From assembly GCA_002923195.1 (NCBI GenBank), contig BDTH01000076.1:1-42951 (forward strand): 42,951 nt of DNA, given 5' to 3'. Shown here one piece after another: positions 1,819 to 39,289 of the stretch (positions are counted from its first letter, which is position 1; the number at the start of each line of letters is the position of its first letter). Origin of the DNA: a bacterium BMS3Abin15 (GTDB taxonomy: Bacteria; Patescibacteriota; Minisyncoccia; Moranbacterales; 2-12-FULL-40-10). A program made the translations under genes and the position numbers. The notes under the pieces are model-generated. The model had not been told where the DNA came from, did no database searches, and was given only the letters and a program-made list of their open reading frames with translations.

Positions 1819-2550
1819 ATGGCTTACCAAATAAAACTGGAACAGTTTGAAGGTCCCCTGGATCTTCTTTTGAATTTAATTGAGGAGCAAAAGCTAGACA
1901 TCACTCGCGTAAGCCTATCCAAGGTAGCGGATCAATACCTGGAATACATTAGGAGCAAAGAAAATATCACTCTGGAAAATCTAGCCGATTTTCTTTCTGT
2001 CGCCTCCCGGCTTATTCTAATAAAGTCCAAGGCCCTACTCCCACTCCTAGAGTTTAGCCAGGAGGAGGAAGAGGATATTAAAGATTTAGAAAAACAACTA
2101 GCTGAATATAAAAGATTTAAGGATATTTCTAAGGAAGTAAAGAGGCTGGCTAATTCTAAAAGGGCTTGTTTCTCCAGGGAAGGGTATCTAGGCATCCAAT
2201 CATTTTTTTACCCTCCGAAAAATATTAATATTTTTGACCTTAAGAAAACATTTGTTAAGACATTAGGCGAGATCCCAATCATTGAAAAGTTGGAGGAGGA
2301 GATGGTTAAGGAAGTGATAACCATGGAAGAAAAAATCAATCATTTGCAGGAAGTACTGCGCGAAAAGATTGAAACATCATTCTCTGAAATTACTTCCAAT
2401 GCCAAAGATAAGATTGAGGTAGTAGTGTCATTTTTGGCGATATTAGAGCTGGTAAAGCAGAAATTAATCCAAGTGGAACAAACGGAATTATTTCAGGATA
2501 TTAAATTAAGGCATAATAATAACAATGAAACCCAAAGCACTAAATCCTAA
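1819..2550 (+). CDS. scpA: Segregation and condensation protein A
   Basis: This 243-residue kleisin subunit of the bacterial SMC-ScpAB condensin bridges the SMC heads and recruits ScpB during chromosome segregation. The N-terminus YQIKLEQFEGPLDLLLNLI is diagnostic, followed by the helical ASRLILIKSKALLP stretch that contacts the SMC neck. A winged-helix C-terminal region ends in a low-complexity Asn-rich tail. scpB follows after a 153-nt gap filled by a palindromic element. The stop codon lies within the left arm of that element, so the last codons may be element-derived. No SD is seen; TATAAC at 1808-1813 lies only 5 nt before the ATG. Confidence 0.93.
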   Translation: MAYQIKLEQFEGPLDLLLNLIEEQKLDITRVSLSKVADQYLEYIRSKENITLENLADFLSVASRLILIKSKALLPLLEFSQEEEEDIKDLEKQLAEYKRFKDISKEVKRLANSKRACFSREGYLGIQSFFYPPKNINIFDLKKTFVKTLGEIPIIEKLEEEMVKEVITMEEKINHLQEVLREKIETSFSEITSNAKDKIEVVVSFLAILELVKQKLIQVEQTELFQDIKLRHNNNNETQSTKS

Positions 2551-2700
2551 ATCCCTGCCCGCCATCGCTGTGCTCAGGCATTGGCAGGCGGGCGAAACAA
2601 TATTAAAGCTCAAATATAAAAATCCAAAACATTTTGAAATTTAGATTTAGAAAATTTGAATTTGTTTAGTAATTAGAGTTTAGGGATTAGAATTTGTAAC
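2536..2700. repeat. Intergenic imperfect palindrome, scpA-scpB, with a GC-rich hairpin in its loop
   Basis: The left arm (2536-2556, AGCACTAAATCC...) and the right arm (2664-2700, GTTTAGTAATTAGAG...) are inverted and built from 7-bp units such as GTTTAGT, AATTAGA, GTTTAGG and GATTAGA. The scpA stop codon is inside the left arm, and the right arm ends 3 nt before the scpB ATG. The loop holds a GC-rich hairpin at 2557-2593. Confidence 0.7.
2557..2593. repeat. GC-rich REP-like hairpin, copy 1
   Basis: GCCCGCC (2557-2563) pairs with GGCGGGC (2587-2593) across a 23-nt loop. A related hairpin with the same TGCCCGC and GGCGGGCG ends is found at 39952-39990, also inside the loop of an AT-rich palindrome. 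Its base composition contrasts sharply with its surroundings. Confidence 0.65.
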
Positions 2701-2703
2701 TAT

Positions 2704-3249
2704 ATGAATCAGGACAAGTTAAAATCAATAATAGAATCACTGCTGTTTGTCAGTGGTGAGCCGATAAAAATATCGCGCTTGGTTAAAATTTCCGGAGCGC
2801 CAAAACCAGAAATAGAAAATGCCATAATGGCACTGTCTAGCGAGTATGAGTCTCAGAACAGGGGATTGAGGATTGTTAAAAAGGAAAATCAGGTCCAAAT
2901 GGCAACCGGCCCAGAAAGTGCTCCTTACGTTCAGCAGTTGATTGAAGGAAAGTTGCAAGAAGAACTGTCTACAGCCTCTCTCGAAGTTGTATCAATTGTG
3001 GCTTACCGTGGTCCGATAACTCGGGCAAATATTGAATCTATTCGAGGGGTAAATTGTAGTTATACTCTGCGCAACCTTTTGATGAGAGGACTAATAGATA
3101 GAACGGAAAATCCTAAGGACGCCCGCGGATATGTTTACAGTATATCTTTTGACTTTTTGAAAAAATTAGGGATTGATGATGTTAAAAAACTGCCTGATCA
3201 CGAAATAATGTCAAAAGATGAAAGGATAGATAATATAATCCAATCATAA
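2704..3249 (+). CDS. scpB: Segregation and condensation protein B
   Basis: This 181-residue winged-helix partner of ScpA and SMC forms the dimeric clamp on the kleisin. Family hallmarks are IIESLLFVSGEPI near the N-terminus, ASLEVVSIVAYRGPITRANIE and IRGVN in the second winged helix, and LLMRGLIDRTENPKDARGYVY. The length is normal. The start is the only ATG before the conserved N-terminus. It has no SD; the palindromic element ends immediately upstream. The acidic and polar C-terminal tail (DHEIMSKDERIDNIIQS) is unremarkable. Confidence 0.93.
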   Translation: MNQDKLKSIIESLLFVSGEPIKISRLVKISGAPKPEIENAIMALSSEYESQNRGLRIVKKENQVQMATGPESAPYVQQLIEGKLQEELSTASLEVVSIVAYRGPITRANIESIRGVNCSYTLRNLLMRGLIDRTENPKDARGYVYSISFDFLKKLGIDDVKKLPDHEIMSKDERIDNIIQS

Positions 3250-3371
3250 ATTCTAATTCCCAAATTCTAAGCACGAAACAAACTATAATTATTTAAATTC
3301 AAATACCTTAAACTTTTAGAAAATTTGAAATTTGATATTGTTTAGGATTTAGATATTAGAATTTAGAGTTT
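3250..3371. repeat. Intergenic imperfect palindrome, scpB-dacA
   Basis: The left arm starts directly after the scpB stop (AATTCTA, ATTCCCA, AATTCTA units). The right arm is at 3340-3371 (GGATTTA, GATATTA, GAATTTA, GAGTTTT units). Both arms show 7-bp periodicity and pair imperfectly around an AT-rich centre. The right arm ends 10 nt before the dacA ATG. Confidence 0.7.
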
Positions 3372-38254: not shown

Positions 38255-38434
38255 TTAAGCGGACTTAACCTTCGACATTGTCTTAATACATTTGGTACAG
38301 ACTTTTTTTCTTTTTCCGTCTATTTTTTTTGTCTGAAGATTAACGTTAAATTTTCTCTTGGTGGCAACCTTGGAATGAGATACGGCAAATCCTGTTTGAG
38401 GTCCACGACCACATATGTCACAAACTCGACTCAT
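38255..38434 (-). CDS. rpmB: 50S ribosomal protein L28 (zinc-ribbon form)
   Basis: The minus-strand ORF encodes 59 residues: [20 protein letters not shown], then [18 protein letters not shown] and [14 protein letters not shown]. Cys5, Cys8, Cys46 and Cys49 form the zinc pairs. [12 protein letters not shown] with a following SHS and RKFNVNLQ is diagnostic for L28. Its start codon is 4 nt from the inner end of the heptad palindrome, so the element also acts on a minus-strand gene. A plus-strand ORF overlapping it at 38228 is a shadow. Confidence 0.93.
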
Positions 38435-38438
38435 GAAA

Positions 38439-38529
38439 TTAGTAACTCGTAACTAGTAACTCGTAACTAGCAATGAAATTTATCATAAGAGATATTTCTG
38501 ATTACTGATTACCGATTACTGATTACTAA
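38439..38529. repeat. Heptad-built imperfect palindrome between divergent rpmB and the protease gene
   Basis: The left arm (38439-38470) is four 7-bp units, GTAACTC, GTAACTA, GTAACTC, GTAACTA. The right arm (38498-38529), reverse-complemented, is GTAATCA, GTAATCG, GTAATCA, GTAATCA. GTAA is kept in every unit, and the other three bases differ between arms almost throughout. The loop is about 27 nt. This is the clearest example of the periodicity of the element family. Confidence 0.8.
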
Positions 38530-38587: not shown

Positions 38588-39289
38588 ATGCCCGCAGAGA
38601 TTATATTAATAGTTTTTCAAGTAGCGATATTGATAATGTCGGTCGTCATTCATGAGGTTTCTCACGGAGTGTCCGCTTTGTGGTTGGGTGATCCGACTGC
38701 TAAATACGCCGGACGACTAACCCTTAATCCCCTGAAGCATCTGGATTTGTGGGGATCTTTTCTAGTACCCTTAATCATGATCTTAACCTTAGGCTTTGGA
38801 TTTGGCTGGGCTAAACCAGTACCGTATAATCCCTACAATCTGCGCGATCAGAAAAAGGGTCCTGCAATAGTTGGATTAGCTGGGCCACTTTCTAATATTG
38901 TCGTGGCTTTAATTTTTGGCTTAGGAGCCAGGTTTATTCCGCTAGGATCTGTTGTTAAGGTAGATATAATACAAAATTTAATGCAATTCAACTTTTCAGA
39001 TCTAGCCGTTGCCATCTCTGGATCTTTTGCCTCTATTTTCTTTCTGATTTTTGTAATGATAGTGTTTATTAATGTTATATTAGCCTTTTTCAATTTAATC
39101 CCCATACCCCCCTTAGACGGCTCTAAATTGCTATTTTCTATTATCCCACTTAGAACAGAAACGAAAATTATGTTGGAACAGTTCGGGTTTGTTTTTCTAT
39201 TAATGTTTATTTTCCTCTTTTCCGGATTATTAGGGAGTTTTCTAATAGGTGCTTTGTCGTTATTTTTCAGATATGTTGTCGGATTATAA
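38588..39289 (+). CDS. Site-2 protease family zinc metalloprotease (M50)
   Basis: This 233-residue intramembrane protease-like protein has about six hydrophobic segments, the zinc-binding HEVSH (His22, Glu23, His26) in the first, and the second motif NLIPIPPLDG (169-178, Asp177) that supplies the third metal ligand. It belongs to the short S2P/SpoIVFB-like class without a PDZ domain. Substrates unknown; S2P enzymes cleave membrane-bound regulators or signal-peptide remnants. Divergent from rpmB. No SD. Confidence 0.9.
   Translation: MPAEIILIVFQVAILIMSVVIHEVSHGVSALWLGDPTAKYAGRLTLNPLKHLDLWGSFLVPLIMILTLGFGFGWAKPVPYNPYNLRDQKKGPAIVGLAGPLSNIVVALIFGLGARFIPLGSVVKVDIIQNLMQFNFSDLAVAISGSFASIFFLIFVMIVFINVILAFFNLIPIPPLDGSKLLFSIIPLRTETKIMLEQFGFVFLLMFIFLFSGLLGSFLIGALSLFFRYVVGL

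Follow-up and report, generated by a model that had tools for sequence, protein, structure and literature searches.

Palindromes with four heptads in each arm are dispersed through Patescibacteria genomes and look like small mobile DNA

Intergenic DNA of a Moranbacteria-like genome and of its relatives contains dispersed elements of approximately 70–130 nt, each of which consists of an arm of the form (AAYNNNN)x4, an AT-rich middle (mostly 12–66 nt) and an inverted arm. These heptad palindromes look like undescribed small mobile DNA. We put the probability that they behave as a REPIN-like miniature mobile element at roughly one half, the mobility itself being what we infer. This reading is favoured by the presence, absence and replacement of whole elements, by the dispersed homologues and by the inverted doublets. 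The window, i.e. the whole stretch of 42,951 nt that was analysed, is contig C76 of a genome of 1.22 Mb in 114 contigs. Its M50 protein has its nearest named relatives in Candidatus Moranbacteria, and the host genome is Moranbacteria-like and belongs to the Patescibacteria. The genomes compared were mostly draft metagenome bins with genes taken from simple open-frame calls, and the window's genus was represented in the collection by a single species.

The element at rpmB lies between the gene for ribosomal protein L28 (rpmB, 38261–38434, minus strand; Pfam PF00830, E 7.5e-17) and, on its far side, a gene for an M50-family peptidase (38588–39289, plus strand; Pfam PF02163). The left arm (38437–38474, plus strand) is 2 nt from the rpmB start codon and reads AATTAGT AACTCGT AACTAGT AACTCGT AACTAGC AAT, giving GTAACTC/GTAACTA heptads. 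It is followed by the AT-rich middle (38475–38493, no strand) and by the right, inverted arm (38494–38527, minus strand), whose units after reverse complementation are, in order, GTAATCA, GTAATCG, GTAATCA and GTAATCA, with GAAAT at the end. The initial annotation had described four heptads in each arm, which the sequence and TRF confirmed: in the left arm TRF reported period 7 with 3.9 copies and period 14 with a 100% match, the arm being an alternating (GTAACTC GTAACTA)x2 with a 14-bp duplication. It had also stated that GTAA is kept while the remaining three bases differ between the arms; indeed, the GTAA positions matched in 16 of 16 cases and the triad positions differed in 11 of 12. The units AACTNGT of one arm and AATCRGT of the other both fit the AAYNNNN frame. 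At other places in the window's genome, GTAACTN units form lone arms, and some arrays are therefore not part of a palindrome.

The heptads that had been noticed before scpB and dacA were found as TTAG repeated four times at period 7, at 2666–2690 (scpB) and 3342–3367 (dacA). When inspected by eye, both arrays were halves of full palindromes, in which each arm has approximately four units and its inner end reads AAACAA. The left arm of the dacA element (3249–3281, plus strand) follows directly after the scpB stop codon and reads (T)AAATTCT AATTCCC AAATTCT AAGCACG AAAC, as taken from the sequence; the right arm (3338–3371, minus strand), with its TTAG array, ends 11 nt before the dacA start codon. 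In the scpB element, the right arm (2664–2699, minus strand) is located just before the scpB start codon, and the left arm (2530–2604, plus strand) was read as ACCCAAA GCACTAA ATCCTAA ATCCC, an apparent GC-rich split and then AAACAATATT. A nested GC-rich palindrome (about 2556–2594) apparently splits this arm, within which the upstream ORF also has its stop codon (ORF end 2550).

GC-rich palindromic repeats of the CCCGCC...GGCGGGC type were observed inside or beside heptad arms at three sites of one genome (the window at about 2556–2594, L001 at about 1460–1500 and L004 at about 1533–1590), as if a second dispersed element inserted into heptad arms. In addition, the stop codons of upstream genes come from the first heptads of an array (TAA in CTAAT or GTAAC) in the window at 2548–2550, in L010 at about 453–460 and in L105 at about 2474–2486, and the insertion of an element can thus re-end a gene.

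Arrays with a lag of 7 are not due to chance. The pattern GTAAN3GTAAN3GTAAN3GTAA occurs 7 times in the 1.22-Mb genome, versus 0 times for the pattern read backwards. In 29 kb of intergenic DNA we counted 9 strong lag-7 arrays against 0.8 expected from Markov simulations; other lags gave 0–3 arrays, except for lag 14 with 6. Autocorrelation at lag 7, which had been suggested as a check, was weak as a plain average over all intergenic DNA (z 1.5; lag 8, z 2.8), since that DNA consists only to a small extent of arrays, which are discrete; tests at the level of arrays were used in its place. The initial annotation had named the absence of a genome-wide lag-7 signal as the finding that would speak against it, and such a signal is present. 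For any 4-mer in at least four copies at a fixed period, there were 14 period-7 arms in the window's genome (430 kb examined), 48 in G046 (500 kb) and 7 in G022 (100 kb), compared with 0–3 at each of the nine other periods (5, 6 and 8–14). In two further genomes the counts were 110 in 375 kb (G050, about 290 per megabase) and 93 in 400 kb (G013), versus 0–6 at other periods. Inverted pairs in the 500 kb of G046 amounted to 12 at period 7 and 0–1 at other periods, and G009 (59% GC) had zero period-7 arms. AAY x5 at period 7 was present across the phylum in 190 of 286 genomes and across the order in 51 of 54, although some families are array-poor; these counts describe distribution only, as the reversed control depends on the pattern itself (TAA recurs at period 7 in CTAAT arrays too). 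The architecture is specific to period 7 and widespread in order and phylum, and it does not represent decay of a perfect palindrome; the initial annotation had likewise doubted simple decay.

Copies that are homologous over their full length are dispersed in the genomes. A 126-nt element of G050 had 47 matches in its own genome and 13–44 in five sister species, with hits to both strands of one palindrome counted separately, and the best matches covered both arms and the middle. An alignment of 40 matches showed AAT to be near-invariant at period 7 together with four variable columns, so that units which differ to the eye (CTAAT, TTTTCAA, TTCCAAT and TTCGAAT) constitute one family. Copies of one family in G046 read AAT(NNCTAAT)x4RAA inwards in both arms, and the same architecture is found with other cores (GTAT, AGCT and GTAG) within one genome. 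The number of exact unit copies per arm in G050 was 4 in 68 cases, 5 in 41 and above 5 in 1. We detected no near-identical copies within a genome, the best matches showing 70–88% identity over most of the element. On either strand, the predicted hairpins surpassed those of shuffled sequences (z mostly −3 to −6); RNAalifold gave no consensus structure for the 40-copy alignment, probably because the middle is gapped.

One heptad palindrome seems to be embedded in frame within a gene (L229, 9624–10115; L248, 14158–14719); between G050 and G013 it shows 99% identity, compared with about 85% for its flanks. In an Abditibacterium MAG (L083, 3971–4058) we observed a GC-rich palindrome of the GGCGCCA type, the arms of which have four heptads each and are essentially identical, hinting that the architecture extends beyond the Patescibacteria.

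To examine the relationship between the arms, we compared 24 distinct elements of the g14 family. Units within an arm shared 2.90 of 4 variable positions versus 2.51 by chance, a level that 0 of 5000 shuffles reached. Between the two arms of an element, in contrast, similarity did not exceed that between arms taken from different elements (2.531 versus 2.529), and their identity at the variable columns, in register, was 2.45 versus 2.52 for unrelated arms (p 0.24). Examples of opposed arms are TTCC x4 facing TTCG x4 and TTCT x4 facing TTTC x4, and the AACTNGT and AATCRGT arms at rpmB behave likewise. The alternating paired and unpaired blocks are thus explained by a shared short core and by the independent homogenization of each arm. 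A designed mismatch between the arms was rejected in the g14 family, where arm–arm identity equals that of unrelated arms, and in general nothing points to mismatches being selected.

Junctions act as slots with exchanged content, and turnover proceeds by whole elements, in a sample of one species pair (G050 and G013) and a few single loci. In genus g16, six species have one particular junction empty (about 5–11 nt), whereas five have heptad palindromes there, roughly 105–130 nt long and made of differing units. In genus g14, the junction between rpmB and M50 is empty in G036 and contains a full palindrome in G050, the right arm alone in G013 and a period-8 array in G065. Empty junctions, being diverged and only a few nucleotides in length, gave no reliable reading of target-site duplications. 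As for the other forms at rpmB–M50 junctions, the G065 palindrome (L187) is a related one with the array (GTTTAAAT)x5, and in G064 and G063 (L189 and L188) TACRAAT units are spaced about 7/11/8/8 and mirrored in the other arm.

G050 and G013 are 88% identical over 129 kb of matched blocks. Among 38 G050 elements with an orthologous slot in G013, 11 were retained, 20 had no similarity and 7 were partial by a BLAST criterion, while looser local alignment placed more slots between these classes, which AT-rich DNA would lead one to expect. The 11 retained elements displayed 84–100% identity over most of the slot, some of them being identical or nearly so while their flanks differed more. Two of the 20 dissimilar G013 slots are 2 and 10 nt long, and many hold another heptad palindrome; no displaced copy of the elements was found in the sister species of the pair. 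The flanks of replaced elements were as conserved as those of retained ones (90.6% versus 87.9% from G050 to G013; 90.3% versus 87.2% in reverse), which argues against import along with neighbouring genes. Of 89 orthologous junctions, 14 were occupied in both species, 13 in one and 62 in neither. Occupied junctions thereby coincide between the species (odds ratio 24, p 2e-7), which speaks for the mobile reading but could also mean that few junctions tolerate insertions. The copy number of (GTTATAT)n differs between G013 and G050. In one further slot, G050 (L230, 12232–12303) carries a different palindromic repeat (GTCATTCCGG...GGATGACA type) and G013 (opposite, L247 at 11456) a heptad palindrome. 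A copying mechanism that rewrites units had been proposed for the heptads: copying at the level of units is visible in the homogenization within arms, but it is not the main route between relatives, since most differences at the same junction are swaps, losses and gains of whole elements.

According to the reading that we prefer, an inverted doublet would be copied or moved as a unit, probably via a single-stranded or hairpin intermediate, and would survive mainly between genes. Within each arm the units may be copied from one another by slippage-type events, so that each arm would stay uniform and yet diverge from its partner. Either the copying alters the sequence, or the sources lie in other lineages, or the copies are old and the slots change by another route; each would account for the lack of close copies. 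Faithful copy-paste or cut-and-paste was rejected, as neither a near-identical source nor a moved copy was found. It is also conceivable, albeit at rather long odds, that self-propagating palindromes inherit the architecture alone (two inverted arms of four heptads) and that an unrecognized copying process alters the units, so that copies never closely match their source. No mobilizing gene was identified among the candidates considered, Y1/RAYT and reverse transcriptase. Genomes with a reverse transcriptase (RVT_1) had a median of 47 AAY heptad arrays versus 13.5 in those without (p 0.0036; 54 relatives of G000, relatedness uncorrected), but G050 (162 array matches), a strong exception, and G036 (85) have neither reverse transcriptase nor Y1, and reverse transcriptase is therefore a weak lead as driver.

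The elements might be true REPINs mobilized by a RAYT (Y1) transposase, since they are extragenic inverted doublets in many copies with singlets present, and 30 of 54 relatives encode Y1-domain proteins (about 225 aa), as does the window's genome, which gave 5 matches. However, no Y1 (Y1_Tnp) match was found in the array-rich genomes G050, G036, G022 and G011, a heptad arm lies within 500 bp of 3 of 34 Y1 loci although RAYTs are described as always flanked by inverted REPs (PMC2817692), and the presence of Y1 is weakly associated with array number (p 0.053). It is therefore very unlikely that a RAYT is the mobilizer. Locus-by-locus slippage, in which the polymerase slips by 7 nt and the inverted arm arises via template switching, fits the homogenized units, the 14-bp duplication in the left arm at rpmB and the variable (GTTATAT)n, and it is the explanation given for the heptamer excess in bacteria (Mrazek 2007, as cited in PMC4679880 and PMC4692102). 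Microsatellites formed in this way would have no preferred copy number, whereas numbers in G050 peak at 4–5 instead of falling off; moreover, middles as well as arms show homology from one locus to another, neither arm of an element is a copy of its partner and whole elements are replaced between species. We regard slippage alone as an unlikely account of the elements.

Selection of RNA hairpins for structure at gene junctions (mRNA processing, stability or termination) would agree with the hairpin z scores on both strands, with elements that occupy the whole space from stop codon to start codon and with some retained copies that resemble each other more than their flanks do. Single arms are common, though, the same junction is empty in sister species, the arms do not covary and, in the elements inspected, the hairpin lacks a U-run after it, and hence such selection appears improbable. 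The initial annotation had also suggested tandem protein binding, and arrays of sites for a DNA- or RNA-binding protein would match the conserved core columns beside variable ones, the regular spacing and the position near start codons; binding was proposed for TAACTGA by MacGregor (2015). Nevertheless, many different cores share the architecture in one genome, so that no single sequence-specific site explains them, a period of 7 is mismatched to the DNA helix and an element can be replaced as a whole by one whose core is different, making this explanation distinctly improbable.

Tandem heptanucleotides dispersed in intergenic DNA are known as the STRR repeats of cyanobacteria, which the Patescibacteria arrays resemble as far as that general description goes. 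In many bacteria, heptamers are the most abundant long simple repeats, for which slippage is the explanation cited (Mrazek 2007, in PMC4679880 and PMC4692102). The heptamer excess has so far had no tested mechanism, being ascribed to slippage or, in Xanthomonas, to G-quadruplexes. AT-rich heptads with the same convergent pairs of four units and with whole-element turnover contradict G-quadruplexes as a general reason, and make the origin of heptads testable by comparison of strains. They further indicate that reduced Patescibacteria genomes can carry an apparent miniature element at a density of up to about 290 arms per megabase (G050).

The REPINs are REP doublets that form hairpins and are associated with RAYT transposases (PMC3116915, PMC2817692). 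The heptad palindromes resemble them as extragenic inverted doublets of about 100 nt with a spacer, hairpin potential, singlets and many copies per genome (for example, the 12 period-7 pairs of G046). They differ in that the REPIN arm is a palindrome headed by GT(A/G)G, whereas the Patescibacteria arm consists of four heptads, mostly AAYNNNN, with a GTAG core in one array only. Another difference is that REPIN RAYT genes are flanked by REPs (PMC2817692), while several array-rich Patescibacteria lack a RAYT and Y1 genes, where present, are in general not array-flanked. The TAACTGA direct repeats of Beggiatoaceae, Cyanobacteria and Bacteroidetes are likewise intergenic heptads near start and stop codons, with 7-nt indels between close strains, but they are almost always direct, with one inverted case, and one heptamer dominates (PMC4679880). 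The corresponding Patescibacteria unit is TAACTNG or, in general, AAYNNNN; the units in the window are TAACTCG, TAACTAG and TAATCAG/TAATCGG in inverted arms, as opposed to TAACTGA in direct repetition.

A literature search of open-licence papers returned no description of such elements in Patescibacteria. Close counterparts are the heptameric repeats GGGAATC/GGGANTN of Xanthomonas and GGGGA(C/T)T of Nostoc, the function of which is given as unknown (PMC4692102). They are mostly intergenic heptads with conserved and variable columns, usually in four units and often in two convergent arrays, all of which we also observed here. Their units are G-rich and linked to G-quadruplexes, whereas the Patescibacteria heptads are AT-rich and unable to form these, with no G-tracts in units such as GTAACTC and AATTTCT, which excludes G-quadruplexes as a general basis. 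Whole-element turnover and the independence of the arms were observed in Patescibacteria and are not mentioned for the Xanthomonas and Nostoc repeats in the sections of PMC4692102 that were consulted. The heptad palindromes are thus related to known heptad repeats and, with respect to the open-licence literature, newly described in Patescibacteria.
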